A stretch of 64,000 nt of DNA, from assembly GCA_028751875.1 (NCBI GenBank), contig CM054140.1:12175485-12239484 (forward strand), given 5' to 3'. The notes beneath the pieces were generated by a model, which was not told where the DNA came from, made no database searches, and saw only the letters and a list, made by a program, of their open reading frames with translations. Shown piece after piece: positions 5,938-64,000 of this stretch; position 1 is the stretch's first letter, and every line of letters begins with the position of its first letter. Both the position numbers and the translations under genes were made by a program. The DNA comes from Rapana venosa (Eukaryota; Mollusca; Gastropoda; Neogastropoda; Muricidae).

Positions 5938-6030
5938 ATGGCAGGAGATACCAAATCAATGTATAACGTGGTGTTTGTGCTGGGTGGACCTGGGGCTGGC
6001 AAGGGCACACAATGTCAAAGAATTGAGGAG
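5938..6030 (+). CDS. CMPK1: UMP-CMP kinase exon 1
   Basis: Residues 1-31, including the whole ATP-binding P-loop GGPGAGKG. Ends GAGGAG before a GTATTG donor, phase 0. Confidence 0.93.
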
Positions 6031-25833: not shown

Positions 25834-26245
25834 TCATATTCCTGTGACTGGGACGGATTTCTTCCCGCCTTTTGGCCAGCACGCGATGCAGCCGCAGACT
25901 TTTTGGGCAGCCGAACGGCCTTGGATGTTTGGAAGACCCTCCTGAGCAATCGTAACCCCAGAGAGAAGCTTGTTCAGCTCCTCGTCGTTCGATAGCCAGC
26001 TGAGGTGCGGGAAATGTTCTCGTTTTCTTGTTGTCCCGGGCAGCAATTTCCCGCCAACTCCAAGACCTCGCCAGCCAGGTACTCGAAGCAAGACAAATCC
26101 ACAGGGACCACGCACAACACGTTTCAGCATAGTCCTTTGCGAAGCTAGACGGTGATTTCTGACCCACTGGAAATTGAAGCCCAGCACGGGATGAGCGACT
26201 TTTTGCCTTAGCCTTTGCTTTTCCGCCTTTACCACGTCCAGACAT
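25834..26245 (-). pseudogene. Histone H2A, frameshifted
   Basis: Core nucleosomal histone H2A. From ATG at 26243-26245 the frame reads MSGRGKGGKAKAKAKSRSSR then AGLQFPVG, exactly the H2A start. Homology then switches frame repeatedly: ARDNKKTR in one frame, NDEELNKLLSGVTIAQ and LPNIQ in another. Several single-base indels and some substitutions are needed to explain this. The intact 5' flank with CCAAT and TATA boxes shows it is not a processed copy. I did not find the conserved histone 3' stem-loop. Either a recently inactivated histone-cluster copy or an assembly with uncorrected indels; the adjoining single-copy exons show no such errors, which favours a real pseudogene. Confidence 0.8.
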
Positions 26246-26400
26246 GATGATAGCTTGATCTCTTCGGGATTCTGCCTCTGAAGTGCGGGAAATCGTGAAA
26301 ATTTGAGGTAGAAACCTATCTTTATACTGACCGGAAGTCAATGAATTGGCCAATCAAAATGTAGTAAAAGCATCTTTTTCAACCAATGAGAATTCCGTAT
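26246..26400 (-). promoter_or_regulatory. Histone-type promoter upstream of the H2A copy
   Basis: Reading toward the H2A start: CCAAT-type motifs (ATTGGTTG near 26383, ATTGGCCAATTC near 26350), then TATAAAGATAGG near 26325, about 75 bases before the ATG. This arrangement is typical of replication-dependent histone genes. Confidence 0.6.
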
Positions 26401-35959: not shown

Positions 35960-36252
35960 CCATGAGCAGGCAGTGGTATACACATATAGAATAGTCTGAT
36001 GCTCAGACTGTTACATTTGTGATTTGGTATACACATATAGAATAAATAGTCTGATGGTCAGAGTTTTATATTTGTGATTTGGTATACACATATAGAATAA
36101 ATAGTCTGATGGTCAGAGTTTTACATTTGTGATTTGGTATACACATATAGAATAGTCTGATGGTCAGAGTGTTACATTTGTGATTTGGTATACACATATA
36201 GAATAGTCTGATGGCCAGAGTGTTACATTTGTGATTTGGTATACATATATAT
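35960..36252. repeat. ~51-bp minisatellite, left block
   Basis: About five units of the pattern GATTTGGTATACACATATAG + AATAGTCTGATGGTCAGAG + TGTTACATTTGT, some with an extra AATA. The order of unit variants in 36020-36250 is repeated at about 39407-39640. Confidence 0.9.
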
Positions 36253-39364: not shown

Positions 39365-40075
39365 AGATATATATAGAATAGTCTGATGGCCAGAGTGTTA
39401 CATTTGTGATTTGGTATACACATATAGAATAAATAGTCTGATGGTCAGAGTTTTATATTTGTGATTTGGTATACACATATAGAATAAATAGTCTGATGGT
39501 CAGAGTTTTACATTTGTGATTTGGTATACACATATAGAATAGTCTGATGGTCAGAGTGTTACATTTGTGATTTGGTATACACATATAGAATAGTCTGATG
39601 GCCAGAGTGTTACATTTGTGATTTGGTATACATATATATATAGAATAGTCTGATGGCCAGAGTGTTACATTTGTGATTTGGTATACACATATAGAATAGT
39701 CTGATGGTCAGAGTGTTATATTTGTGATTTGGTATACATATATATATATATATATAGAATAGTCTGATGGTCAGAGTTTTATATTTGTGATTTGGTATAC
39801 ACATATAGAATAGTCTGATGGTCAGAGTGTTACAATTGTAATTTGGTATACATATATATATATAGAATAGTCTGATGGTCAGAGTGTTACATTTGTGATT
39901 TGGTATACACATATAGAATAAAATTTAATAGTCTGATGGTCAGAGTGTTACATTTGTGATTTGGTATACACATATAGAATAGTCTGATGGTCAGAGTGTT
40001 ACATTTGTGATTTGGTATACACATATAGAATAAATAGTCTGATAGTCAGACTGTTATATTTGTGATTTGACAGTA
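39365..40075. repeat. ~51-bp minisatellite, right block
   Basis: About 13 units of the same monomer as 35960-36252, with (TA)n expansions inside several units. Minus-strand frames such as MCIPNHKCNTLTIRLF are this repeat and do not represent a protein. Confidence 0.92.
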
Positions 40076-41870: not shown

Positions 41871-42094
41871 TCAAGGGAACATGTACCAGGGCTCTGGGAT
41901 TGGCAGGAGAACGGCATCGATGCCATGCACGACACCATTGGTGGCCGTGCTGTCACAAGAGCCAACCACAATATCGTTGACTACAGGTCGCCCTCGACGG
42001 TCACGTGTCACGAAGATGGAGTGGCCATTCAGCGTACGGATCCTTTGGTGGCGCCACCAGGGGTTGCGGAAGATGCCGGCACAGCACAGGTTTT
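41871..42094 (-). CDS. FAS1 gene terminal exon
   Basis: Acceptor CTCCTGACAG; 73 codons plus stop. Encodes the second half of FAS1 domain 4, with a divergent aromatic/basic insert (NPWWRHQRIR), the H2 motif GVVHGIDAVLLP and the end PEPWYMFP. Confidence 0.9.
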
Positions 42095-43852
42095 CTGTCA
42101 GGAGAAAGGAGCTCGGAGTCAGTTTGTCGACAGTGTGAAATTTCTTGGGAAAAAATCTTATATTGAAAAGTTTGTCAATAATGTAAAATGCTTTCTGGGA
42201 AAAGTCTTATATTGAAAAGTTTATCAATAGTGTAAGACGTTTTCTGGGAAAATCTATATTGAAAAGTTTGTCAATAGTGTAAGATGCTTTCTGGGAAAAT
42301 CTATATTGAAAAGGTTGTCAATAGTATAAGAAGTTTTCTGGGAAAATCTATAAAGTTTGTCAATAGTGTAAAATGTTTTCTGGGAAAAGTTTTACATTAC
42401 TGACAAATTTGTCAATAGTGTAAAATGCTTTCTGTGAAAAGTCTGATATTATTTAATAGTTTGTCAGCAGTGTAAAATACTCTCTGTGAAAAGTCTGCGT
42501 TAAAAAGTTTGTTAATGGTGTAAAATGTTTCATGTGAAAAGTCTTATATTGAAAAGTTAGTCAATAGTGTACAATACTTTCTGTGAAAATCGTATAAATT
42601 GAAAACAGTTTGTGAACAGTGTAACATATTTCATTGTGAAAATCATATATCAAAAAACACTTTCTCAATAGTGTCAAATATTTTATAAAAAAAAGAAAAG
42701 TCTTGTGTTGAAACCAGTTTGTCAATAGTGTAAAAAAAAAATTATGTGAAAAGTCTGTGAGAGAATGATTAAACTTTTGTACTATACCAATCGGGGACGG
42801 GATAGCTCAGTGGTCGGAGCACTCGCTTTCCCCCAGCCAAGTTAAGCAGCGTCGAGCGTGGTTACCAATTGGATGGGTGACCGTTTTCGCGCCTTGGCTT
42901 CAGTACAGTTCCCCCAGTTCACCCAGCTGTAAATGGGTACCTGCCCTCTTTAGGGTCAGGGAAGGTAAAGCAGCGAGGGAGAGGAGATGGGCGCCGCCCT
43001 CAATACGCTGGCCCTAGAGAAGTGAGGTCTCTGACGCCTCGCTCCCCTACGACCTTAATATAGGTTATGGGACACCTTTACTATACCAATCAAAGGACAG
43101 AGAGATATACAACATGGCAGGCAGAGAGACAGTAAGACAGACAGACAGGAAGACAGACAGACAGACAGACAGACAGACCATGGTAGACATGCATCTTGAG
43201 TATGCGGGCCAGTTCATCAAGGTCATTCTCCAGATCCTTCAACCTCTCTTTCCCCAGTTCTGTGAAGGCCTGGAACCATGTCACACCACAATTACCCCTT
43301 AAAGCATCAACGTTTTCTTGATTAATTAAACCAATATGAAATTCATGGTACAGATAACAAGAATGTTCAACATCAGTATTAACGATTAGTGTCTAAGCAT
43401 CTGTTTGAAATATAACTGTAAGCTCCCTTCTGTTGGGGTGTCGGGGGCCTGTCAGTTTAAATAGCATCCCACCTTTTGGGAAATTATGTGCTAGGAATTT
43501 CTACTTTTCTATCCCTCTCTTTGTTTCTGCCTAGTTCCTTTTCTTTCCTGTCATCTTCTTCTCGTCTATTTTCTGCCTTCTTGATCTATTCTTCTGCCTT
43601 TTAAAAAAAATTTTAATTTTTTTTTAGAAAGGCTTAAATTATAATAGTTGTTTTTCACAGTGAAGTTGAATGTGTTGGGCCTGACTTGCCAGGTGCTTAA
43701 CATACGCACGCGTGTGTGTGTGTGTGTGCGTGCGTGCGTGTGTGCGTGTTCGTGCGTGCATGCATGTGTGTGTGTGTGTGTGGGCAATAGTTTGATTTCG
43801 TTTTATGTCTCTTCACTAAATGTGATATTAGACTCAAAAGGGCTAGGGGTGA

Positions 43853-43885
<33 letters not shown>

Positions 43886-46800
43886 GGGGGGAACTGAGAT
43901 TTGGTTAGGGGGGTAATTTACTAAGTCTACAATAAACAAGTAAGAAAATGCAAATGTAAAGTAACTCTTAAGTACAGAATTGTAAAACCACATATTCTAA
44001 CAGAGTCTAACCAATAAACAATAAAATGATATTTTAAGACTATAACCAACAAGAGAAAATAATTATAGTCCACAGGAAGATAGTGTCTCTAGAGTCCATA
44101 ATAATCATAATAATGAACCAATTGGACTATGCATTAACGATTTGAAAAAAAAAATCTCAGTAGATCACTGAATATCGCCGATGACGTTGACGAGTAAGAA
44201 CAGGTATGCAGCTTTTTAGCATGCTGCATATCAAGATATGATCAACAGTTACACTATGGCCACATATGCAAGAGACATGCCCAACATATTTTGTCTTAAA
44301 ACAGTTCAGTTTCCATCGACAAGCTAGAGAGACAATTTGTTTTATACAATAAGAATCAGTTTCATGTCTTTTAACAAAAGACTCAAATTTTATCATTTCT
44401 AGACAACCAAGTCTATTTTCCTCACACTGGAATAATTTTTGCTGCGTTTTTTGAACGAGGTGATAACGTTTGTAGTGACAGATGGAGCTTTAAACTTGCC
44501 ACCATCCAATAATCTTTTTGCCCATTTTCTCACTAAAATGTCAACTTTTTCATTGTAATATATACCAGAATGAGATGGAATCCAACAAAAAGTTATATTT
44601 TGAGCCTTTTCAAATCAAGTCAAATTTTAAGGTGATAAGATGAATTAAATGACAAATTTCAATGACTAATTCAGATCTTGCTTTTGTTTGCATAGAGCTG
44701 ATGGCTTGAATTACTGATTTTGAATCACACAGAAAAGTATATGAAAAACAACTTTCGGAAAATTGATGAAGAAATTAAGAGCCATCAATATTGCTACAAG
44801 CTCTGCTGTAAAAACTGATATATTCTTCCCAAGGTGAAATGAATTTTCTGATTTAAAGTCTGGTGTAATGTATGCAGCCCCTGCATTATTGTTTACAACT
44901 GAGCCATCTGTGAACACTTTGAAATGATTTGAATAGGTTTCTTCCAAATGAATTTTTGCTTGGGAAGATACTTAATTTATATTACAATTGTTAATTAAGC
45001 CAATGTAATTAACATCAAACTGCACTCTTTTGAGTTCCCAAGTTGAAGTGGGGGATACTTCATCTCTTTTAGCAATGTTTGTATTTGGATTCAACCCAGC
45101 ATTTATACACGTTTGAGATGTATATGTACCAAGTGTGGTGTTAGAGGATATTGATCTTGCTCTCTTCAGAAAATCACTGTCAGACTTGAGGTTTACTACC
45201 GACTGCAAGTCATTTTTAACAATCAGACTTCGTAAAACAAATTTACTACAAGCAATGGTTCTGTTATTTTCTAATGGTAAAATTCCAGATGCGCTGTATG
45301 TTTTTATACAGGAGGCATGAACAGGTAGACCTAGAGCCAGTTTGTATGCTCTACAGTCTGTGCTTTGAAGTTTTCTTAACAGATATTTTGGAGCATTAAA
45401 AAATACTTCTTGAGCATACGTCAAATTTGAATGCATGTTGTTGTTGACTTCAATTTTATGTCTGTTCACTTTTAGTGATATTAGACGGGAAACCCCCCCC
45501 CAAAAAAAAACAAAAAAACCTCCCCACCCAAAAAAAAAACGGGTGAGGTGGATGTGTTATTAAAAAAAAAAAAAAAAAAAAAAATTTAAAAAAACAACAA
45601 CTCGAAAAGAAACTTGGCAATGCAACAAGAATCATTAACAAGCAAACAAACAAACAAAAAGTCATTAACGTTAATGTAACTATAACAAATGTCCTATGGG
45701 ACTGTGACAAAGACCTTTCACAATTTCAAATGCTAGTTTTAGATTGCTGAATATGCTGGTGAGGAAGTTTTCAGAAAAATGGGGCATGAAAGGTTTTACA
45801 CTCTGGCAGTCAAAAAGTATATGAGTATTAGTAATATTCTCACCACACAGGCATTTACCATTTTTGCTGAATTTGGTTATCAATGCATTTAGTTTCATTC
45901 TATAGAATAAAGTATTAATTCTCCTTGATGTAAAAACACTTGTACTAACTTCTGAATGGTTCACCACTGTTAAATTATCGGTATTAATTGCAGTTCTAGT
46001 TAAAAGTTTCTCATTTTGCTGATTACTGTCAGTGACCTTTTTCCATGATTTTTGTTCTAGTAAGCTATACCCTTCTTGTAAGGATAAAGGCACATGCAAT
46101 TCTATTGCATCCCGTCCATGTTTTGCACCCTTTTTGGCAGCTCTATCCGCCCACTCATTTGGAAAGAAACGTGCGTGCGTGTGTGTGAGAGTGTGTTTGT
46201 GAGGATGGATGGGATAATGCATGGATGGAAATGTGCATGCATGCATACATGTCTACATACATGCTTGTCTGTGAAGTTCTGACTGCATGTGGATTATATG
46301 TGTGCGCTTGTGTGCATGCGTAAGTATGTGTGTGTTTGTTTGTGTGTGCATGTGTGTGTCTATGTGTGTACAAGTAAGTATTCAGACACCTATGCATACA
46401 TGCGTGCAAGTCAAGTGAGTGCATATACAAAGCAGACTATCAATGACAAGATTTACTTTTTGGAAAACAAAGTAATACACTGACAACCTGGACTGCATTA
46501 TACAAAAAAATATCTGCTCACACTCCTGTTCTGGTTTACCTTGTTGTTGGGAGCGAAGATGGTGAAAGGGCCATCTTCTTGCAAGGAGTCTGCCAGCCCA
46601 GCCACCTTCAGCAGACGCACCAGAGTGCTGAACTCAGGGTTTGCCGCCAGCACGTCCACGACATTGCCTTGTGGAGGCAACAACACCTACAGCATTGACA
46701 GACTGGTTATCTGATCTAATGTAACACTTGCAGCATTGACAGACTGGTTATCTGATCTAGATGTAACACTTGCAGCATTGACAGACTGGTTACCTGATTT

Positions 46801-47813
46801 AGTGTTTATACTTGCAGCGTTGACAGACTGGTTAAGTGACTTGATGTAACACCTACAACATTGACATACTGGTTAACTATTTTAGTGTAACACCTGCAGC
46901 ATTGACAAACTGGTTAACCGATCTGATGTAACACCTGCAGCATTGACATACTGGTTGACTGATTTGATGTAACACCTGCAGCATTGACAGACTGGTTAAC
47001 CGATCTGATGTAACACCTGCAGCATTGACATACTAGTTGACTGATTTGATGTAACACCTGCAGCATTGACAGACCGGTTAACTGAATTAGTGTAACACCT
47101 GCAGCACTGACAGACTGGTTAACTGATTTGATGTGAGATGTATAATTTCTCCTGAGGCACAAAAACACATGTAAAATCAACAGACAGGCTAACTGATTCT
47201 TTGGTTGATGAACAAATGTATGTAGACTACCTCATGTCTTTAGAATGACAATGACAATGACAAAATTCTTTTATTTCGAGGATAATGAATAAGCACCCAT
47301 GTGCTTTTTTACATCCAGTCCCTGCCCTTAAGGATATATATGATAATAAAATAAAATAAAGCCCATAGCAATACACTTACACTGTTTACGGGGGAAAAAA
47401 AAATCTACACAAAAATCCCCACGAAAATCACCAAAGAGAGAGAGAGAGAAAAAAAAAAGTAGCAACAAGTAAGAAAGAAAGCAGAACAGAAAACACAGAA
47501 ACAACCGAAAAAATAGCAAGAACCAAGAGCAAAAACAAAAACGGCAACAACAACAAGGGGAGAGGGAACAATCGAATAGTCCCCCCTCAAGAAAGCAACA
47601 ACCCCAAACCCAAACAGAACCAAACAAAGCAAAACCTCCATAAAATAAAGGAGAACAAATTAGAAACAGACATGAGAGTGATATCAGATTATGTTTCCAT
47701 TTACACATATTGTTCTGTAGGAATTGGGGTGTAACATTTGATATCCATGACTCTTTGTTCATTCTTCCTGAAAGATATTAAAAAAACCCCATCTGTCCCA
47801 TTATGCACCTATC

Positions 47814-47856
<43 letters not shown>

Positions 47857-50800
47857 TTTTGCTGTATGGCGTCTCTTACCAATGACTTGGAATGCAATGC
47901 AAGTACGCACACATTCTTACCTGGTCAACGACGTGCAAAATGCCATTGCAGGCCTCCAAGTTGGTGCGAACAATGGGTGCACACTGCGCCGTCATCACAT
48001 GGTGATCTCCGAATGGAAACTGAAACACACCACCAAGTCAAGTACAGTTTTCTTCTTCTTCTTTGTCAGATGCTCAGACAGCAACTATTCTTGCTTGTCA
48101 TATGAGCAGAAAATGTGTTGCGCTGCCGTTAAACACCTGACAAGTCAGGCCCAGCGCATTTGACTTAGACAGCAACTATTCTTGTTTGTCATATGGGTGA
48201 AAACAGGTTGCGCTGCCGTTAAGTCACTGACAAGTCAGGCCCAGCACATTCGACTTTGGAATGAAGTACAGAGTGATTTCCTCATTCATAAAGAAATGGT
48301 ATGAGACCTGGGTTGGCCCAGGCCAAATGCTGTGTCTGTTATTGATGGAAGCAGTGTTCCAAGCCTACACTGAAATGTTGCTATGCTGCTTCAACATTTC
48401 TTAGCTTCTAATTCATTTTTAAAGTCTGTATTTTTAAAAAAAAAAGGATAATGAATAAACAATCATGTGGTTTTTTTTTTCCACATCCAGTCCCCATGTG
48501 CGGAGGCACAGTGGTCGAGTGGTTTAGGCGGTCAACTCGTGATCCAGAGGTCGCGGGTTCGATCCCGCTCGGCTCGGTGTTGTGTCCTTGGGAAAGACAC
48601 TTTACTCCTATTTTCCTCACTCCACCCAGGTGTACAAGTGGGTACCAGCTCTGCTGGGGAAGTATCTGGCGACAGACTAGCGTCCTGTCACAGGGGTGGT
48701 GAAAAACCATCAGTTCGCTTAACGCTACAGAAACCGGGATAAGCTCCGGCTCTATGGGCCTTCTGGCTCGAAAGAACATACTTTTAGTCCCCGAGTGCAT
48801 GCAGTTTTGTGAATTTTGTCATCCATTCCCACCGGCTAAAAACCGAATTAGGATATGCCGACAGGTGAGACTGGTGAGACCAACAACTTCCAACACCTTC
48901 ATAATATCACAAATAAACAAGCGAGTCAGCAGCAAGCTCACCGAGGAGTACTCGTTGATGCGGATTTTGTTGTCCCCATCCAGGGTGCTGAGCTGACGGT
49001 TGTTGTACAGCTGACGGCTGGTCAGGTCTTCAGGAATCACGTGGTAGTTCAGGAGGCCCTGCAGCATCTCCTGGTCTCCTGCATCCACCTTCTCCAACAC
49101 TGCCGGTGGCAGGTCCTGACAGAAAAAAAAATCCAATAATGATTGCTGTTATTGAAGGTTTTTTTTAAAGAAATATAAGGCGGAAGGGGGTGGGGGTGGT
49201 TGAGATGTTCACCTGCCTAATAAGTAGACTGTGCAGTTCTGGGTTTGACTCCCAGCCTTGCCCTTTCTTCCCAGTTGGGAAAATCGAACTGAATGCCAAG
49301 TTTTTCAGAAGAGACTCTAAACCAGTAGGACCCATTTGCTCTCAGACTTGTACATGTCAAAGACCCCCCCCACAACAGTTGCAATTCGGAAAGAACAGCG
49401 TGGTAACTCTTGACTGTCCTGGAAAAATTTGTAGGTTTAATTCCTAATTGTAGCCCCCCCCACCCCCCCAGTCAGAATGTGGGGGAAAAAACGATTGCAA
49501 ATCCCCCCCCCCCCTCCCAAAAAAACCACCCCAACTCACAACTGGTGAACCTAAGAGCTCCAGCACAGGAACGGTAAAACAAAAAAAACAAAGAAAATAT
49601 TAATGCTAAGAAAGAGAGAAAAAAAAAGCAACAAACTCACATTCCATTCTAAAAAAAAATCACTTTTTAAAAAAATTACAAGAAGTGTTAAAGATCAGTG
49701 CAACACAGAACAGCGCAATGTAACGAAACAGAGTGTAACATAACATATATAAAAAAAACCCAAACCAACCCACAGACAACATAACTGCTTCTCTGACCTG
49801 CAGAGCCTGATTGGAGGGGGCGAAGATGGTGAGGTTTTCAGCCTTCTGCAGGGTGGGGATCATCCCTGCCTTGCCCACCAGACTCACCAGCTCCGTCAGC
49901 TCTCTCTCCTTCGCCACCGACACCAGGTCCAGAGCTGAAACAGGGGATGCACTGTTGTATCTTTATTCACTCTTTTTTCCCATTCATTCCTTGGCTAGGC
50001 CTCTGAGGTTCGTTCACCAATGGTGAGACCGTGCGATTGTTTTTGCACACCTTGCAGGTATGCTGGGGACAGCAGCTAGAAAGAAATCTTGCAATGACTG
50101 AAAACAGTATACAATACAATACAAAACAATACAATGCAATAAACGTAAGCATGCGCACATACACACACATACACAAGCACACGCATACAAGCACACACAC
50201 ACAAGAACACAAACACACAAAGATACAAAAGACGCACACGTATGCACCAACACACACACACAAACACACACATGCTTTGTGAATTATTTATGTGATTCAT
50301 TTGTCACTCTGTGTGTGTGTGTGTGTGTGTGCATGCGTGCATGTGTGCTTACATGTGTGCATGTGTGTATGCAGTATCTGTATATATATCAGCATATCCA
50401 CATTACTAAATCTTAATGTGAGCCTGTCTAAACACAAATGCATTCATATATCTTTGCACATAATTATATATCAGTGCATATGGGCACATACCTATATAGA
50501 TAACTATCATATACTATCTATTCCCGAAGTTCGAATGCAGCTACCTTCATGGTGGGCAAAAACGGTCACATACAAAGCGTCTCACCAATGGCGAACCTCA
50601 GAGCTCTAACTGAGGAATGGGAAAAAACCCCAACAACAACAAAAAACCTTTAAAAAAAAACCCAACCAAAAAACTATCTCTTTATACCACATTTTTTCTC
50701 TTTTCTTGCTAATGATGACCACTTACCATCATCGGGAATCATCAAGGCATCAATGACATGCAGCACTCCATTGGTGGCCATGACGTCAGCGCGGACGACT

Positions 50801-52861
50801 TGTGCCTCGTTGACGAACACTTTGTTGTCCTCTGTGCGCGTGAGGTTGACGAAGTTGCCCAGGATGTTGCGTGACTTGGCGCGGCCTTGGATGACCGTGG
50901 AACAGATCACGTGGGGGAGGACATGGTGCTTGATCACCTCTGCAATAAAGAAATGGGGGGGGGGGGGGAAAGAGAACGAAAAAAAAAGAAAAAAGGAAAG
51001 AAGAAAAATGAACTTGTAATAGTTGTCATACAAATGTTCATGAGATTAATTACAAACGTGTTGTTTTTTTTTTCTTCAAAATATTAAATGTTATGTCCCA
51101 GTAGTTTTTCTGTATTGTTTCATGTTTTATATATGACACTATGTACCAAACTTGTAAAATGTTAAATTATTATAATAAAAGGAATAACAACGTTACAATG
51201 ATTTTTCTCTCTGTTTATCTAAGTAGTATTAGATTTTAATTGGTGCAGCTCTAAAGATGATTACAGATAGCTGATAAAGAGATGTACACTTTCATTGATA
51301 TTGGATTTGCTTCAGTTTCATTTCTGATGAGAAAACAGATCAATATATATATATATTTTTTTTTTTTGGTGTGCCTTGTATATTGCAGGGTAGTAATCGC
51401 ACTATTCTGATGGTTTGGTGGGATATCTTTACTGGATTTTTGTGTGACAGCATAGAAAAGGAAAAGCACTGACTGACAGGTATACTGCTCTGTTTTAGAT
51501 ATGACAAACATTGATTGAGGATGATGATAAAATTGTTGGCAATGACAGATGATGGGAGATAAGGGACACTGAACTGACAACAGCAATGAAAACAGTAACA
51601 GAAACAAAAATAGCAACAGTAAAAACAGAACAGCTCCAGTAGTGTTAGAAAGATAACAGCAAAAGTAGCAACAACAATGACACACAAAATGTGCTGAAAT
51701 GAAAATGTACGAAAAATAATCCTACACAGAGGCTTTGCCACAAATATATCTGTACAGACAACCACAAACCATAAAAACAAACTCACAATGTCAGTTATGG
51801 CAAAGAAATAGGTCTTACACCTCAAAGGCAGCAAAGTTTTATACATATAGTACATCCTTATCCATACAAAACATAAAAACAAACAATCAATTTATGGCAA
51901 AAACACAGGTCTTCTGCTTCAACAAAAGGGAACATTTATCCTCATCCACAAATCTTTTGCATCAAAGAAAAAGAAGATAATATCCTTCTTAAAAGAAACC
52001 CAGACATACAAACACACAAAATCAAAAACAGTAAAGAGATAGGTCCCATGCTTTAAGGAAAGTGAAGGTATATCCTTTTCCAGCTCTCTCATCACAGATG
52101 CAACAGCTTACTGCAAAAAACATATGAACAGACACTGAGAGACAGAGAAAGAGAAGTGGTGACTTGTTCACACAAACTACATACCCCCCACCCCCCCAAA
52201 CCCCCCCCACAACAACAAACCCACCAAAAGAACCCCACCACCCAAAACAAACCAGCTCCACAAACTACATACATCATCTACTTGTAAACGATCACAAACA
52301 CTCACTCTCCAGGCACTTGGGGTCTCCTCGGAGCAGACGGTCCAACATCCGTGGTTCCAGATTCTGGAAGGCAGCATTGGTGGGGGCAAACAGCGTGAAC
52401 TTGCCGTCCCCTTTAAATTCCGGTACCAGGTTGGCACGTCCCAGAGCTGTCCGCACAGTGACACAGGAAATGAGTGACACACATGCAACAGTGGATGGAG
52501 GATTTGTCAGGTTTGAAAAATGAGCGTGGCTGGTTTTATGATTCATAATGGGACACGTGTAAGGAAATTTAAGATTGGTTGACATATGAGCAAGTTTATA
52601 AACAGAAAATACCATTTACTTACAAAAAAAAAGAAAGGTTTAGAGAGGGTGACATGAAATAATTCACAGTTGAAGATGTGATCGATTCAAGAATAAAGTC
52701 AGTTGGGTACATCATTATTACAGCTCTTACTACTTCTCAGTTAATCTGTAGCTGCTGTTACTCTTCCTTTTGCCAACAAATAGTAATTGTATCTCAATCA
52801 CGCAATAAGTTTTTACTCCCCAAAAATGTGTACCTCTGTCTCTTACACACACACACACACA

Positions 52862-52913
<52 letters not shown>

Positions 52914-55272
52914 CACACCACCCACTCACCCACACACCACCTACCCACTCACCCACCCACTCACACACCACCCACACCACCTACCCACTCACCCACCCAC
53001 TCACACACCACCCCACCACCTACCCACTCACACCCACACCACCTACCCACTCACCCACCCACCCACTCACACCACCTACCCACTCACCCACCCACACCAC
53101 CTACCCACTCACACCACCTACCCACTCACCCACCCACACCACCTACCTACCCACCTCTATTATAATAATGATTATTGTAATCTTATTTGACTTATCTTGC
53201 TTTGATAGTTATTATGTGAACAAGTCATTTTTAAAAAAGCGGCTATTTGAAAAGTATGAGCGCATAAAAAGCACACGTTTGCTGGGTGGAGGAGGAGAGG
53301 AGGGAGGTCATTGAAGGTAATATTGTCAGTAATGACGAATGCCTAGTATTTTCTAACGTTTTATTCCTGTACCTTTTTATTATCTAAAGTATAAATGTGA
53401 AAGAATGGATGAAACAGTAGGTGAAGTAATTTGTTTGTCCTGACGTTTTATGATTTTCTTTTTTTAATTCTTAAAACATTTTTATTTAAATGTGTGTGTG
53501 GACGTGAACGCGCACGCGCTCAGGTGTGCATGAGTATGTGTGTGCGTGTATATGTATATGTGGTAATTTGTATTTTCAATGTATTTCCTTATCGATTCTT
53601 TCCTCTTTTTTTACTGGTTTAATTTAATGGTAAATGATGCAATAATGTAGTGTCTTAGTATAATCATTACGAAATTTGTTCTTAGATAGATGGCTTGATG
53701 AAAAAAAGCAAATGCATTGCTTATTCAATGTACCATCAGGAAATAAATTTTGACTTGACATGACTTGACTTGACTACCCACTCACCCACACATCCACACA
53801 CCCCCACCTGTCTTGAGGAAGGAGAAGTCCTCCTCCCTCTGGATGACGTCCAGAAGGGTCATGGTGACAGTGGGCACCACACGCTCCACTGTGTGGATCA
53901 CCCCGTTAGAGGCCATGTGGTCTGTGGAGGTCACCTTCACACAGTTGGCCGTCGTCAGCTTGTCCGGCCGCGAGTAGAAGTTAATCCTGCCAAGGGGACA
54001 TGGATAGATTTTTAAAAAATACTTTAAAAAAAGTTGTTGGATACACTTGTCTTTATGATTCTTCTCAATTTTTTGGTTTGAAAATGTCTCTTTCTCACTT
54101 TTTTGGGGGTGATTTGAAGCCCATCACCAAGACAGCTGTTTGAGGAGATTTTCCCCCCCCCCCTTGGAGTCAACATCAGTCCTGACTCTCAACTCTTCTT
54201 AAAGTCCTATGTATGAGACTATAAACCAAGGCCTTGTGTACATGCACACACGTTACATCTTGTACACAGGTAAAAACCTGTTCTGCCTTTTGGAAGAGTA
54301 GGCCATAGCGTGGTAGTAGGAATGGATCACAATGTAAACTCCCTCCCCCCTTCCCCCCCAAAAAAACAACTGCACACACACTGGTATTGTGTTTAGAAAT
54401 GTTCGCCAAAGTTGGAATGTGGCTACCTTAATGGTTGCAAATACATTGGTGGACCTAGCTTGGAGCTCTAGCTCAGGAATGAACAGAAAACAAACACCCC
54501 CCCCCCCCCCCCCCCCCCCCCCACTACCACCACCCGCTACCACCCCCGACACCCCCCCCCCCCCCCCCACTACCACCACCCGCTACCACCCCGACACCCC
54601 CACCCCTCCAAAAAAAAGAAAACCATCAAAAATCGCAAAAAACACACCGGCCATGCAGCAGTAAACTCCATGAAGAAAAAAAGACAAAGAAACACATTTC
54701 TGCAACCACAGTGGGCAGGCAAATCCAACATCACTGTCAAAAGTGCTAAATCTGGCATCCCCCCCTTTCCTTTCATGGAGACCAAGAGCAGTCAGTTCCT
54801 GCTATAATTAGCACTAGCTGGCCCCAGCTGGGCTGGGATGGAATGAGTAGCAGCTGAAAGTGGGAGAAACTGACAGCTAGCTGTGCAATCTTCTTCACAA
54901 TAAATACAAAAAAAAGAAAAGTCTCCACCCACCTGACAGTGGAGTCGTAAGGACTGGCCGTCTGCAGCAGCTCCTCATCACCGAAGGAGGAGGCTCGGCG
55001 AGGTCCTGGCACGATATGCCCCAGCAGAACAGCCTGCAGGTCGTCCTCCATCTTGTCCAGCATGGGCCGGGAGATCATCAGAGCTCCAGGGTGGTCCTGC
55101 TGAAGCGTCAGCCCGGGGCCTGTGGGCAAGGGGAAGCCCCCATCCACAGGGGCAAAGACGGTGAAGTTGCCTCGGGTCAGTTCTTCATTCAGCCCCACGA
55201 TCTTGACGGCCTTCAGGAAGTCGTTGAGGCCCAGGTCCTCGGCTGTGGTGAGGAGGTCGTCCATGCGGAGTC
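41871..55272 (-). CDS. Four-FAS1-domain matrix protein (TGFBI/periostin-like), 5' end missing
   Basis: Secreted-type matrix/adhesion protein by family. Join on the minus strand: 55272-54933, 53986-53808, 52446-52306, 50939-50727, 49934-49798, 49115-48942, 48019-47921, 46686-46540, 43269-43179, 42094-41871; all phases agree and give 581 residues to TGA. FAS1 H1 motifs: TVFAPVDGGF, FTLFAPTNAAF, LTIFAPSNQAL, FTIFAPNNKAF. H2 motifs: GVIHTVERVV, GVLHVIDALM, GILHVVDQVL, GVVHGIDAVL. Domains run at about residues 1-165, 166-290, 291-432 and 433-575. Only domain 3 keeps the YH pair (LNYHVIP); domains 1, 2 and 4 have GH, HH and MH. No C-terminal RGD is present, unlike TGFBI. Signal peptide and EMI region were not found; they probably lie upstream or in the sequence gap. 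Confidence 0.92.
42110..42765. repeat. ~55-bp minisatellite beside the last FAS1 exon
   Basis: About 12 diverged units of the pattern 'AGTTTGTCAATAGTGTAAAA' + 'TTTCTGGGAAAA' + 'TCTTATATTGAAA', starting within about 20 bases of the acceptor at 42095. Divergence rises toward 42760, suggesting that the exon-proximal units are the youngest. Confidence 0.85.
42793..43078 (+). mobile_element. SINE-C, intact, tRNA-like head plus 5S rRNA-like module
   Basis: A 286-bp element flanked by a perfect 13-bp target-site duplication TACTATACCAATC (42780-42792, 43079-43091). Head 42793-42832 has a tRNA A-box-like TAGCTCAGTGGTCGGAGC. Positions 42836-42884 read AAGTTAAGCAGCGTCG ... TTGGATGGGTGACCG, matching the 5S rRNA internal promoter (A box, intermediate element and C box) in order and spacing. 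The rest ends in GGGACACCTTTAC. It lies in a FAS1 gene intron, antisense to the gene. Confidence 0.88.
43125..43178. repeat. (CAGA)n microsatellite at a donor site
   Basis: Runs of CAGA/GACA (GTCT on the minus strand) directly abutting the 5' splice site of the FAS1 exon at 43179-43269. Confidence 0.92.
43179..43269 (-). CDS. FAS1 gene exon with donor inside a tetranucleotide repeat
   Basis: Acceptor GGTTCCAG; 30 codons plus one base: AFTELGKERLKDLEND... to MHVYH, the middle of FAS1 domain 4. Phase and homology force the donor to be G|GTCTGT, which is the first unit of a (GTCT)n tract (43142-43178). The next exon completes the split codon correctly. Confidence 0.85.
43435..43705 (+). repeat. 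Repeat G, second copy
   Basis: Collinear with 4069-4330: 'GGGGCCTGTCAGTTTAAATA', 'GTGCTAGGAATTTC', 'TTTTCTGCCTTCTTG', 'GGGCCTGACTTGCCAGG'. Confidence 0.6.
43708..43890. repeat. (GT)n tract and poly-G run
   Basis: GT/GCGT repeat at 43708-43782 and an almost pure G run at about 43855-43885. Such runs are prone to assembly error. Confidence 0.9.
44155..45475 (-). mobile_element. RNase H-bearing LINE fragment 1
   Basis: Minus strand: 45470-44985 encodes a C-terminal reverse-transcriptase 'thumb/connection' region (ANVR-free; e.g. PKYLLRKLQSTDCRAYKLALG, LPVHASCIKTY), then an RNase H start VFTDGSVVNNNAGAAY (44920-44870) with TAELVAILMAL, and a worn C-terminal region with CICGHSVTVDHILICSMLK (44265-44205). 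RNase H places it near the I/Jockey/R1 side of LINEs. Frames are broken repeatedly. Confidence 0.75.
45535..45590. repeat. A-rich tract between two LINE fragments
   Basis: AAAAAAAACGGG followed by a long A run (45560-45583) separates the two RNase H LINE fragments; it may mark the 3' end of the upstream copy. Confidence 0.6.
45685..46175 (-). mobile_element. RNase H-bearing LINE fragment 2
   Basis: An open stretch encodes NEWADRAAKKGAKHGRDAIE (end of RNase H) through VFTSRRINTLFYRMKLNAL to KCLCGENITNTHILFDCQ, the zinc-finger tail. It overlaps in content with 44400-44205, so it is a second copy of a related element in the same orientation. Confidence 0.75.
46540..46686 (-). CDS. FAS1 gene exon, start of domain 4
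   Basis: 49 codons between acceptor GCTGTAG and donor GTAAAC: VLLPPQGNVVDVLAANPEF ... FTIFAPNNK. The first residues finish the H2 strand of domain 3. Its acceptor is the first unit of a tandem array. Confidence 0.92.
46684..47135. repeat. ~41-bp minisatellite containing the 3' splice site
   Basis: Eleven units of 'CACCTGCAGCATTGACAGAC' + 'TGGTTAACTGATCTGATGTAA'. On the minus strand each unit reads ...AGTTAACCAGTCTGTCAATGCTGCAG|GTG..., and the unit touching the exon is the actual acceptor (CTGTAG|GTG). Confidence 0.92.
47230..47660 (-). mobile_element. LINE 3' UTR copy in a FAS1 intron
   Basis: (GACAAT)n at 47248-47262, then 'TTTTATTTCGAGGATAATGA', 'ACATCCAGTCCCTGCCC' and an A/C-rich stretch complementary to the T/G-rich region of the copies at 27690 and 34060. 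Phe/Cys-rich minus-strand frames are artefacts of this composition. Confidence 0.7.
47815..47856. repeat. (TG)n microsatellite
   Basis: About 19 TG units, 65 bases from the FAS1 exon at 47921-48019. Confidence 0.95.
47921..48019 (-). CDS. FAS1 gene exon, end of domain 3
   Basis: 33 codons, phase 0 at both ends, acceptor GTGTTTCAG, donor GTAAGA. Encodes FPFGDHHVMTAQCAPIVRTN and the H2 motif GILHVVDQ. Confidence 0.92.
48060..48250 (-). repeat. Repeat G 3' part, duplicated in tandem
   Basis: Two ~95-bp copies ('GACAGCAACTATTCTTG', 'TTGCGCTGCCGTTAA', 'CTGACAAGTCAGGCCCAGC') joined directly; reverse complement of 4290-4398. Confidence 0.7.
48425..48850 (-). mobile_element. SINE-A split by SINE-B
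   Basis: 48430-48493 ('GGATAATGAATAAACAATCA', 'CACATCCAGTCCCC') and 48784-48850 ('AGTCCCCGAGTGCATGCAG', 'TTTTGTCATCCATTCCCACC') are the two parts of one SINE-A copy around SINE-B. Confidence 0.7.
48494..48783 (+). mobile_element. SINE-B, intact copy
   Basis: A-box-like GTGGTCGAGTGGTTTAGGCG and B-box GGTTCGATCCC at ordinary tRNA spacing, then the 280-bp body shared with 12005-12283. Flanks carry similar 'AGTCCCC(A/G)(T/A)GTGC' words, a probable target-site duplication. Confidence 0.85.
48942..49115 (-). CDS. FAS1 gene exon, middle of domain 3
   Basis: 58 codons, phase 0 at both ends, acceptor TTCTGTCAG, donor GTGAGC. Encodes DLPPAVLEKVDAGDQEM, the YH motif LLNYHVIP and the strand NNRQLSTLDGDNKIRIN. 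Confidence 0.93.
49180..49575 (+). mobile_element. SINE-E, tRNA-headed
   Basis: Head 'GGTTGAGATGTTCACCTGCC' and B-box-like GGGTTTGACTCCC, body 'CTTGCCCTTTCTTCCCAG', 'GAATGCCAAGTTTTTCAG', 'TGCTCTCAGACTTGTACATG', ending in a SINE-D type block. Second copy: 58135-58485. Confidence 0.75.
49798..49934 (-). CDS. FAS1 gene exon, start of domain 3
   Basis: 137 bases, acceptor CTGTTTCAG, weak donor GTCAGA. Encodes LDLVSVAKERELTELVSLV and LTIFAPSNQALQ. Confidence 0.92.
49975..50625. other. SINE-D fragments and CA/GT microsatellites
   Basis: A SINE-D 3' block lies in reverse orientation at 49978-50045 and forward at 50523-50625, bracketing (CA)n at 50150-50275 and (GT)n at 50310-50370. Part of a FAS1 intron. 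Confidence 0.6.
50727..50939 (-). CDS. FAS1 gene exon, second half of domain 2
   Basis: 213 bases, acceptor TTATTGCAG, donor GTAAGT. Encodes VIKHHVLPHVICSTVIQG, FVNEAQVVRADVMATNGV and LHVIDALMIPDD. It carries one Asn-X-Thr site in FVNLTRT. Confidence 0.93.
51000..52300. other. FAS1 intron, no recognised insert
   Basis: AT-rich sequence with a G run at 50956-50968 and C runs near 52187-52209; no coding-like frame beyond composition effects. Confidence 0.5.
52306..52446 (-). CDS. FAS1 gene exon, middle of domain 2
   Basis: 141 bases, acceptor GTGCGGACAG, donor GTGAGT. Encodes LGRANLVPEFKGDGK, the H1 motif FTLFAPTNAAF and LLRGDPKCLE. Confidence 0.93.
52845..53155. repeat. (CA)n and ~21-bp minisatellite rich in donor-like words
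   Basis: (CA)n to about 52910, then units of 'CCACCTACCCACTCACCCA'. The word CACTCAC (GTGAGTG on the minus strand) occurs eleven times. The same words flank the donor of exon 53808-53986 on the far side of an inserted element (53776-53800). Confidence 0.9.
53156..53775 (+). mobile_element. Retroelement 3' part inserted in the minisatellite
   Basis: Unique-looking sequence ending 'GCTTATTCAATGTACCATC' + 'AGGAAATAAATTTTGACTTG' and a (TTGAC)n tail, after which the 'TACCCACTCACCCACAC' pattern resumes. The same ending, with TTTGAC units, occurs at 62630-62720. No coding part remains. Confidence 0.6.
53808..53986 (-). CDS. FAS1 gene exon, end of domain 1 and start of domain 2
   Basis: 179 bases, acceptor CCTTGGCAG, donor GTGGGG. 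Encodes INFYSRPDKLTTANCVKVTS, the H2 motif GVIHTVERVVP and the domain 2 opening LLDVIQREEDFSFLK. Confidence 0.93.
54110..54480 (+). mobile_element. SINE-A body followed by a SINE-D/E 3' block
   Basis: 'GGAGTCAACATCAGTCCTGA', 'GAGACTATAAACCAAGG', 'GTAAAAACCTGTTCTGCC', then from 54405 'CAAAGTTGGAATGTGGCTACC' and 'GGAGCTCTAGCTCAGG'. Confidence 0.6.
54496..54612. repeat. Poly-C tract with a ~43-bp duplication
   Basis: Two long C runs (54497-54521, 54555-54569), each followed by CACTACCACCACCCGCTACC. Consensus length here is probably unreliable. Confidence 0.85.
54779..54892 (+). repeat. Repeat H fragment
   Basis: 'CAGTTCCTGCTATAATTAGC', 'GGCCCCAGCTGGGCTGGG', 'GAGTAGCAGCTGAAAG' match 12430-12530. 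Confidence 0.6.
54933..55272 (-). CDS. FAS1 gene exon, most of domain 1
   Basis: 340 bases, acceptor CATCCTCAG, donor GTGGGT. Encodes MDDLLTTAEDLGLNDFLKAV, the H1 motif FTVFAPVDGGF, and VLLGHIVPGPR. The start needs one base from an upstream exon, so this is not the first exon. The insert after H1 (LPTGPGLTLQQDHPG) is longer than in domains 2-4. Confidence 0.92.
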
Positions 55273-56000: not shown

Positions 56001-56500
56001 NNNNNNNNNNNNNNNNNNNNNNNNNNNNNNNNNNNNNNNNNNNNNNNNNNNNNNNNNNNNNNNNNNNNNNNNNNNNNNNNNNNNNNNNNNNNNNNNNNNN
56101 NNNNNNNNNNNNNNNNNNNNNNNNNNNNNNNNNNNNNNNNNNNNNNNNNNNNNNNNNNNNNNNNNNNNNNNNNNNNNNNNNNNNNNNNNNNNNNNNNNNN
56201 NNNNNNNNNNNNNNNNNNNNNNNNNNNNNNNNNNNNNNNNNNNNNNNNNNNNNNNNNNNNNNNNNNNNNNNNNNNNNNNNNNNNNNNNNNNNNNNNNNNN
56301 NNNNNNNNNNNNNNNNNNNNNNNNNNNNNNNNNNNNNNNNNNNNNNNNNNNNNNNNNNNNNNNNNNNNNNNNNNNNNNNNNNNNNNNNNNNNNNNNNNNN
56401 NNNNNNNNNNNNNNNNNNNNNNNNNNNNNNNNNNNNNNNNNNNNNNNNNNNNNNNNNNNNNNNNNNNNNNNNNNNNNNNNNNNNNNNNNNNNNNNNNNNN
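56001..56500. other. Assembly gap of exactly 500 N
   Basis: A round-number run of N, hence a placeholder; the true length is unknown. It borders a minisatellite, the likely cause, and may hide upstream FAS1 gene exons. Confidence 1.
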
Positions 56501-61618: not shown

Positions 61619-61734
61619 TTAGTGTGTTGGATAAAAAAAACCCAAACAAACAAAAAACAAAAAAAACACGACCAAGAGAAAAGTAAGATAACGAAATATA
61701 GTACTGATACGGCGTATCAGTCACAGACAGGCGG

Positions 61735-61777
61735 ACAGACAGATAGACAAGCAGGTGTACAGACAGACTGACAGATG

Positions 61778-61811
<34 letters not shown>

Positions 61812-61817: not shown

Positions 61818-61880
61818 CCCTCCCACCAATCTCGCTGTCTGCCGAAGCCACGTCCCCCAAAGTTGAAGTCAAAGTCCAGT
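61818..61880 (-). CDS. Probable upstream exon, Gly/Phe/Arg-rich
   Basis: 63 bases between a strong acceptor (TTTTGTAG) and a strong donor (GTAAGT) on the minus strand, phase 2 at both ends, so it can be skipped without frame change. Encodes LDFDFNFGGRGFGRQRDWWE. Its orientation fits the 5' part of the FAS1 gene, but its phase does not match exon 55272-54933 directly; at least one exon, perhaps in the gap, must lie between. It could also belong to another gene. Confidence 0.5.
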
Positions 61881-61882
61881 CT

Positions 61883-62100
61883 ACAAAACAGACAGACAGA
61901 CAGACAGACACACGCACACACACACACGCACGCACACACACACACGCACGCACACACACACACGCACGCACACACACACACATGCACACGCACACACACC
62001 AAGCACTCCCGCACGCACGCACGCATACATACACACACACATGCACACGCACGCACACACCACACACCCACAAACACACACACACACATGCATGCCACGC
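61883..62100. repeat. (CAGA)n and (CA)n/(CGCA)n microsatellite
   Basis: GACA units followed by CA/CGCA repeats, directly upstream (minus strand) of the predicted acceptor at 61881. Confidence 0.95.
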
Positions 62101-62629: not shown

Positions 62630-62712
62630 AAAAGATGCTTGTCTTGATGAAAAAGAACCAAGAAACAATTGCAGTGCTTATTCAATGTACCATCTGGAAA
62701 TCAAAGTTTGAC
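62630..62712 (+). mobile_element. Retroelement 3' end with TTTGAC tail
   Basis: 'GTGCTTATTCAATGTACCATC' region followed by 'TGGAAATCAAAGTTTGAC' and TTTGAC units, matching the ending at 53720-53775. The TTTGAC tail runs straight into the tandem array. Confidence 0.6.
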
Positions 62713-64000
62713 TTTGACTTTGACTTACCCGAGGTCCATATGCCTGAAGAAGTCGCTCCAGTCTTTGACTTTGACTTTGACTTACCCAAAGTCCATATGC
62801 CTGAAGAAGAAGTCGCTCCAGTGTTTGACTTTGACTTTGACTTACCCGAAGTCCATATGCCTGAAGAAGTCGCTCCAGTCTTTGACTTTGACTTACCCGA
62901 AGTCCACATGCCTGAAGAAGAAGTCGCTCCAGTGTTTGACTTTGACTTACCCGAAGTCCACATGCCTGAAGAAGAAGTCGCTCCAGTCTTTGACTTTGAC
63001 TTACCCAAAGTCCATATGCCTGAAGAAGTCGCTCCAGTGTTTGACTTTGACTTACCCAAAGTCCATATGCCTGAAGAAGAAGTCGCTCCAGTCTTTGACT
63101 TTGACTTTGATTTACCCAAAGTCCATATGCCTGAAGAAGTCGCTCCAGTGTTTGACTTTGACTTACCCGAAGTCCACATGCCTGAAGAAGAAGTCGCTCC
63201 AGTCTTTGACTTTGACTTACCCAAAGTCCACATGCCTGAAGAAGAAGTCGCTCCAGTCTTTGACTTTGACTTACCCAAAGTCCACATGCCTGAAGAAGAA
63301 GTCGCTCCAGTCTTTGACTTTGACTTACCCAAAGTCCATATGCCTGAAGAAGAAGTCGCTCCAGTCTTTGACTTTGACTTACCCAAAGTCCATATGCCTG
63401 AAGAAGTCGCTCCAGTGTTTGACTTTGACTTTCCCAAAGTCCATATGCCTGAGGAAGTCGCTCCAGTCTTTGACTTTGACTTTGACTTACCCAAAGTCCA
63501 TATGCCTGAAGAAGTCGCTCCAGTGTTTGACTTTGACTTTGACTTACACAAAGTCTATATGCCTGAAGAAGTCGCTCCAGTGCTTGACTTTGACTTTGAC
63601 TTATCCAAAGTCTATATGCCTGAAGAAAACGCTCCAGTGTCTGACTTTGACTTTGACTTACCCAAAGTCCATATGCCTGAAGAAGAAGAAGTCGCTCCAG
63701 CCTTTGACTTTGACTTACCCGAAGTCCATATGCCTGAGGAAGTCGCTCCAGTGTTTGACTTTGACTTTGACTTACCCAAAGTCCATATGCCTGAGGAAGT
63801 CGCTCCAGTGTCTGACTTTGACTTACCCGAAGTCCATATGCCTGAAGAAGTCGCTCCAGTGTTTGACTTTGACTTTGACTTACCAAAAGTCCATATGCCT
63901 GAAGAAGAAGTCGCTCCAGTCTTTGACTTTGACTTTGACTTACCAAAAGTCCATATGCCTGAAGAAGTCGCTCCAGTGTTTGACTTTGACCTTACCCGAA
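62707..64000. repeat. 51-60 bp tandem array, about 23 units, open in four frames
   Basis: Unit: (TTTGAC)2-3 + TTACCC(G/A)AAGTCCATATG + CCT + (GAA)2-4 + GTCGCTCCAGT(C/G). Unit length changes only by TTTGAC or GAA, so no shift occurs until an extra C near 63990. The + strand reads FDFDLPKVHMPEEVAPV-like repeats. The minus strand carries GG|GTAAGTC, a consensus donor, in nearly every unit, and AAAG|ACTGG in the units ending GTC. The array continues past the window. I cannot say which strand, if either, is expressed. Confidence 0.9.

Follow-up and report, generated by a model that had tools for sequence, protein, structure and literature searches.

The 64,000-nucleotide stretch analysed here, referred to as the window, comes from the gastropod Rapana venosa (assembly GCA_028751875.1, contig CM054140.1, positions 12,175,485 to 12,239,484 of the forward strand). 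Its minus strand carries a predicted gene of the FAS1 family in which the acceptor border of one exon, E8, is repeated in an eleven-unit tandem array (array A). We predicted the exon borders of this gene from homology and sequence, and picked splice sites so that the phases join. Nine of nine minus-strand FAS1 frames scanned match the Fasciclin domain PF02469 (E0 and E9 lay outside the scan), and E1 to E10, running from 55272 to 41871 on the minus strand, join into an uninterrupted predicted protein of 580 residues that is terminated by a stop codon. All exons listed below are predicted, E1 to E8 and E10 from PF02469 and phases, and E9 from phases and homologues.

61818-61880, minus strand, E0, a further 5′ exon, LDFDFNFGGRGFGRQRDWWEG (coordinates read by hand)
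54933-55272, minus strand, E1
53808-53986, minus strand, E2, with donor GTGGGG
52306-52446, minus strand, E3
50727-50939, minus strand, E4
49798-49934, minus strand, E5
48942-49115, minus strand, E6
47921-48019, minus strand, E7, ending in VVDQ at the splice cut
46540-46686, minus strand, E8
43179-43269, minus strand, E9
41871-42094, minus strand, E10, with the stop codon

The relatives of the predicted protein are mostly gastropod TGFBI/ig-h3-like proteins, with homology along the whole length. The closest homologues are a 751-residue protein (76%) and a protein of Nucella lapillus (82% over 70% of the query), followed by those of Littorina saxatilis (66%), Babylonia areolata (59%) and Pomacea canaliculata (59%), while the solved structure nearest to it in sequence is that of TGFBI, 5nv6 (E 1.6e-76). 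The window gene is predicted to encode a TGFBI/ig-h3-like protein of the extracellular matrix type. None of the exons expected between E0 and E1 was recognised by tblastn; a 500-base N gap at 56001-56500 may contain them, and they would code for the cysteine-rich N-terminal part.

Array A was mapped with Tandem Repeats Finder (TRF) to 46682-47134 on the minus strand, as 11.0 copies of period 41, in agreement with the original prediction of eleven ~41-bp units at 46684-47135. Each unit, 41-42 bp in length, corresponds to the last ~36 intron bases plus the first 5 bases of E8; the consensus unit on the minus strand reads ACATCAAATCAGTTAACCAGTCTGTCAATGCTGCAG/GTGTT, where the slash (here and below) marks the splice cut and GTGTT is the start of E8. 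All eleven units match the array core at ≤ 3 mismatches, with 0 expected by chance, and GTGTT is present in ten of them (unit 4 has GTATA). Within E8, these bases code for V and part of L in the conserved VDQ/VLLPP. The border 30-mer of the E8 acceptor has 10 near-copies, the best of which match 27 of its 30 bases. As had been proposed, the real acceptor of exon 46540-46686 belongs to the end unit, with a fitting phase. The words said to recur, exactly or in a close form, in every unit are present in the array but rarer in exact form: CTGCAG/GTG occurs exactly six times and GTTAAC five times in eleven units. The units fall into three groups, here scored with a consensus splice matrix that was not trained on this species, and an older copy lies beyond them.

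46682-46722, minus strand, unit 1, exon-side, with the predicted real acceptor CTGTAG/GTGTT, with the splice cut at 46687/46686 and a phase 0 junction with E7
46723-46847, minus strand, units 2-4, nearest to the real acceptor, altered to CAAG/T and scoring < 0 (splice matrix and unit alignment)
46848-47134, minus strand, units 5-11, acceptor copies CAG/G or TAG/G scoring 3.5-6.1 (splice matrix)
47164-47198, minus strand, decayed older unit copy that ends in GTGTT (27 of 35 bases identical, ungapped)

The decayed copy reaches a score that none of 2000 shuffles attained. Array A also contains an 82-bp second-order repeat: units 6 and 8, and likewise 7 and 9, are 98% identical, whereas the neighbours 6 and 7 are 90% identical, which points to a later duplication within the array. 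Elsewhere in the 2.28-Gb genome, the array A unit was absent in a search that skips simple repeats.

The original prediction had described such arrays as rows of decoy splice sites. Scoring of each unit gave candidate acceptors for units 5-11 but not for units 2-4: seven of the ten extra copies fall in a range (3.5-6.1) that includes the score of the real E8 acceptor (4.3). Most units also carry a TAAC- or CAAC-like branch-point word, as judged from the unit list. Acceptor-like sites scoring ≥ 3.5 occur at 15.7 per kb in array A versus 10.1 per kb in other intron sequence of the same strand and 8.7 per kb on the opposite strand, i.e. the array is only mildly enriched (∼1.5-fold). A stronger acceptor-like site (score 8.8) lies at 47151, just upstream of array A; its use would include the whole array and lead to a stop after 10 codons. 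Each of the 11 alternative acceptors tested (the ten units and 47151) introduces a stop codon, either in the sequence that would be inserted or in E8, and the E7/E8 join shows no insertion or indel in nine of nine aligned homologues of other species. On these two grounds, the exon-side unit is likely to be the acceptor used. The remaining acceptors of array A are potential decoys that would most likely be weak or silent.

The rest of the assembly was searched for FAS1 exons and 20 + 2 stretches were taken, in which paralogue exons were mapped by means of 121 homologous proteins and their borders set with the splice matrix. In nine FAS1 loci, border-spanning arrays were found at 6 of 79 predicted borders (array A included), namely at four acceptors and two donors. 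One intron (locus C9, C9:50733001-50743000) has arrays at both ends, at local positions 5962-6444 and 7500-8431. Its donor, CTCTGGCTG/GTGAGTG, opens an array of 32.7 copies of 23 bp that shares ∼4 exon bases, and its acceptor, TATGTGACAG/GTGGCCCATT, closes an array of 14.2 copies of 33 bp that shares ∼10; the joined exons read TLAGGPFTVFAP, in agreement with the FAS1 motif of relatives. The donor of locus C13, CTCAGTG/GTCAGTG, opens an array of 21.4 copies of 23 bp (∼7 exon bases shared), and the acceptor of locus C11d, GTTTCAG/CCATTTCCACAATCTTC, closes an array of at least 36.6 copies of 40 bp with ∼17 exon bases per unit. At the acceptor of locus C8, units of ∼100-130 bp have 28-39 bases in common with the exon. 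Further minisatellites beside exon ends, which either stop short of the border or consist of simple repeats, were left uncounted. Thus, splice borders do enter tandem arrays, as originally claimed, in array A and in five cases at predicted borders of its relatives, and border-spanning arrays are apparently common in the FAS1 family of the R. venosa genome.

The other units retain the splice dinucleotides to very different degrees: AG is kept in 7 of 10 units in array A, 12 of 13 at the C9 acceptor and 31 of 37 at C11d, and GT in 22 of 42 at the C9 donor and 18 of 18 at C13. We considered that decoys might be purged by selection, and rejected this because AG/GT retention at the six borders shows no common trend. 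The closest paralogue, C17, has no border-spanning array at the acceptor matching E8. An unrelated array of 13.6 copies of 50 bp is present in the C17 stretch (local positions 373-1063) and ends ∼60 bp before the E8-equivalent acceptor; by eye, TTAAC, a pyrimidine stretch and AG can be recognised in its units as well.

The frequency with which borders enter arrays was compared with that of other intronic sequence. We counted near-copies of each border 30-mer at 75% identity, on the intron side and up to 1.3 kb away, and derived expected values from sites in those introns at a distance of 100-1000 bp; this test misses short or interrupted simple repeats, e.g. (GTCT)n. For these counts, the E8 acceptor was set by hand to 46686 (automatic placement put it at 46827, inside the array), while the C9 acceptor was counted at its automatic position 6048, inside the array, instead of 5978. 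Locus C11c contributed no usable border, and some loci may be parts of one gene (C11c and C11d are ∼40 kb apart). At least one near-copy was found for 10 of the 79 borders versus 19.5 expected; the corresponding numbers were 6 versus 12.3 for ≥ 3 copies, 6 versus 7.9 for ≥ 6 and 4 versus 6.5 for ≥ 8. An earlier version of the test, with 61 borders in seven loci, gave 8/61 versus 400/1708. Likewise, a TRF array of any kind lay within ∼10 bp for 19 of 92 exon ends versus 1240 of 3564 intronic positions, and a minisatellite for 12 of 92 versus 655 of 3564. Within the window gene, 1 of 18 borders had near-copies versus 10.3% of 1500 random intronic 30-mers. Tandem arrays make up 28%, and minisatellites 15%, of the 163.6 kb around FAS1 genes, stretches that do not sample the genome at random. 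On balance, arrays catch borders about as often as, or less often than, other intronic sequence, which does not support the original proposal that exon-intron borders seed the duplications.

Two further arrays of the window gene, arrays B and C, had been described as copies of splice donors. These and the other repeats beside exons are as follows.

52848-53155, minus strand, array B, a degenerate CACC repeat (TRF)
53157-53773, plus strand, 617-bp insert between array B and the E2 donor, with the 3′ end TTATTCAATGTACCATC..TTGACTTGACT, which resembles a retroelement tail
53774-53807, minus strand, 34-bp stretch resembling array B that follows the E2 donor directly
62708-63997, plus strand, array C, ∼54-bp units after a retroelement-like tail at 62677-62705 (TRF)
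43118-43178, minus strand, (GTCT)15 microsatellite that starts at the first intron base after E9 (TRF)
42121-42624, minus strand, 47-bp minisatellite that ends 26 intron bases before the E10 acceptor, its units with TTTTCCCAG/A-like sites (TRF)

Array B does contain the eleven GTGAGTG words noted at 52910-53155, and it is rich in donor-like sites (27 scoring ≥ 6 in 308 bp of the minus strand versus 2.1 per kb in other intron sequence). However, it is a degenerate CACC array, it is separated from the donor by the insert, and the border itself is uncopied. Specifically, the array ends 653 bp from the E2 donor at 53808, the first GTGAGT is 22 bases deeper into the intron than the real donor GTGGGG, and the E2 border 30-mer has no near-copies at 75% identity within 1.3 kb. 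We therefore rejected array B as a border-copying array, given a border without near-copies and a real donor of GTGGGG. The 3′ end of the insert (53691-53771) is similar to 62640-62726, and both finish in TTGACT or TTTGACT runs; we infer that these two ends are retroelement-like tails.

Array C repeats the donor-like GGGTAAGT on the minus strand, as had been stated, with 19 sites scoring ≥ 8, but it is unconfirmed as a donor of the gene: no exon of the gene was identified at array C, and the 10 kb beyond the window, where an exon at its far end may lie, are N. The nearest exon, E0, faces the array with its acceptor rather than a donor. Array C was found nowhere else in the genome. It starts right after the tail and its units contain the tail's hexamer, and for these reasons it more likely grew from the junction with the retroelement tail than from a splice site. 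Its plus-strand frame is open for 456 codons, and each of the 22 full units has a length divisible by 3. A coding repeat was considered and rejected, as the variable columns fall 4/4/6 on codon positions 1/2/3, a single protein search gave no homologue and Pfam no match; the unit lengths divisible by 3 are accounted for by slippage of GAA and TTTGAC. The claim that one gene holds several border-copying arrays was not borne out, since arrays B and C copy no identified border.

At E9, the donor GTCTGT is the first unit of the (GTCT)n run. E0 is flanked by simple-repeat runs with (GTCT)n on each side (61723-61811 and 61888-62088). Splice-friendly microsatellites may have been the source of a pyrimidine tract or donor at E0 and E9. 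The E10 acceptor was tested as the end unit of the 47-bp array and rejected, because 505 of 2000 flank shuffles score as high.

Several other elements were noted in the window. The same 51-bp minisatellite is present at 35974-36251 and 39371-40069, flanking ∼3 kb with long plus-strand frames; this segment is retroelement-like by eye, and three of its frames gave no Pfam match. A reverse transcriptase fragment (PF00078, E 4.4e-8) lies at 9855-10295 on the minus strand. A 284-bp repeat with a tRNA-like start occurs at 48502-48784 and 12000-12283 in opposite orientation (97.5% identical), and is probably a short interspersed nuclear element, as judged by eye. Finally, a broken histone H2A-like sequence at 25837-26337 on the minus strand (PF16211, E 6.2e-7) is probably a pseudogene.

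We favour the view, with a probability of roughly three in four, that array A is a border-spanning minisatellite which arose by chance duplication over an exon edge and is bypassed via the exon-adjacent copy. An ordinary tandem duplication would have happened to include the exon edge; after this first duplication, the extra copies would sit on the intron side and be tolerated provided that splicing keeps to the exon-side acceptor, and unequal exchange or slippage would then alter the copy number. A high minisatellite load would cause several borders to be caught in one gene family. The rate at which minisatellites capture borders is most likely close to background, since near-copies of borders are not above those of nearby intronic positions. 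Several points weigh against this explanation. The use of the exon-side acceptor is deduced from sequence, the paralogue borders were placed by homology and the splice matrix, and the sampling covers a single gene family; the C8 cut site is the least certain of the six borders, as AG is kept by neither (0 of 2) of the other units aligned there, and the window is less repeat-rich than the FAS1 stretches as a whole (12.5% arrays, 7.2% minisatellites). Moreover, in the window gene alone, 4 of 21 borders lie ≤ 10 bp from an array versus 0.45 expected (P 0.0008), or 0.69 expected with pooled placement (P 0.005); these P values are rough, as neighbouring positions are not independent. The within-gene thresholds were set after the fact, and in three of the four cases the array is a simple repeat next to E0 or E9 and not a copy of the border. 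In addition, the single border of this gene with near-copies, the E8 acceptor, has 10 of them, and ≥ 8 were seen in only 0.6% of the 1500 random 30-mers.

The last two observations, together with the number of border-spanning arrays (six among 79 borders), are what would speak for borders actively seeding tandem duplication, e.g. as a replication- or transcription-linked hot spot. We consider this unlikely in view of the nine-locus counts, in which borders fall below expectation both for any near-copy and for ≥ 6 copies, the lower frequency of arrays at exon ends than at intronic positions, and the failure of arrays B and C to copy an identified border. That array A is an independent intronic minisatellite, the end unit of which the acceptor resembles by chance, would be in keeping with how common minisatellites are in the sampled parts of the genome; it is nonetheless very unlikely, because the match crosses the acceptor into five exon bases that encode a conserved residue pair, the closest copies agree with the border at 27 of 30 bases, and arrays at other loci share ∼4 to 39 exon bases. 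The comparable scores of seven of ten upstream units and the real acceptor, and the branch-point words in most units, could suggest a functional switch made of multiple acceptors, with splicing tuned by the number of copies. Such a switch is highly improbable given the stop codons that follow from all 11 alternative acceptors, an acceptor-like density just ∼1.5-fold that of other intron sequence, and the loss of CAG/G in the three units nearest to the exon.

Border-spanning arrays have a close precedent. In amphioxus, ‘mirage’ minisatellites are described as tandem repeats of intron-exon boundaries in Adh3, the globins BflGb6 and BflGb9, troponin C (TnC) and PGBD5, with units of 10-72 bp in Adh3, 60 and 108 bp in PGBD5, and 150-160 bp in the globins (PMC3087553, PMC3902484). 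AG/GT is kept by many but not all units, haplotypes differ in copy number in one of the globin cases, and the Adh3, globin and TnC mirages are reported to leave regular splicing undisturbed (PMC3087553, PMC3902484). Array A resembles mirages in that its units span a predicted border and include 5 exon bases in 10 of 11 units, in keeping AG in register in 7 of 10 other units, and in a unit length (41-42 bp) inside the reported 10-160 bp range. Unlike the amphioxus cases, array A belongs to a gastropod FAS1 family and is known here from the sequence of one assembly. At their predicted borders, array A and its five relatives fit the structural definition of a mirage, and the unit sizes reported for amphioxus span those found here.

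Intron gain by tandem genomic duplication likewise duplicates a stretch that bears splice sites; unlike in that process, the intron pre-exists here and no new intron is predicted. In humans, a minisatellite reportedly provides multiple splice donor sites in the transcript of the interferon-induced gene 6-16 (IFI6/G1P3), according to a title from 1995. To judge from this title, the repeat contains donors, as do the C9 and C13 donor arrays; in 6-16 the donors are provided to the transcript, whereas the C9 and C13 arrays are known from sequence alone. Among gastropods, the excerpt available for the abalone TSSK1-like gene reports a minisatellite of 27-bp units in intron 3, the repeat number of which differs among individuals (PMC6905558). 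It too is a gastropod intronic minisatellite, and that excerpt describes no exon border within it (PMC6905558). Gastropod intronic microsatellites are treated in another paper, the excerpt of which describes no border-spanning array (PMC3862624). In the open-licence PubMed Central literature, as far as its excerpts reach, we found no report of a molluscan border-spanning array; nor did we find one there of acceptors formed by a variable number tandem repeat.

In each gene with a border-spanning array, splicing must pick one border among many near-identical copies. With 10 to > 30 natural copies in a single gene family, at donors and acceptors and at both ends of one intron, these arrays would make the choice among copies directly testable, including the parts played by position, order of transcription and exon sequence in border choice. 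Tentatively, and with somewhat more doubt than confidence, we suggest that several percent of all exon borders in this gastropod genome, i.e. thousands, may carry copied splice-site rows, a standing and variable stock of decoys on which alternative splicing, exon extension and intron gain could draw. The FAS1 arrays themselves would also show that minisatellite load alone, without special seeding, can make raw material for new exons and introns beyond amphioxus.
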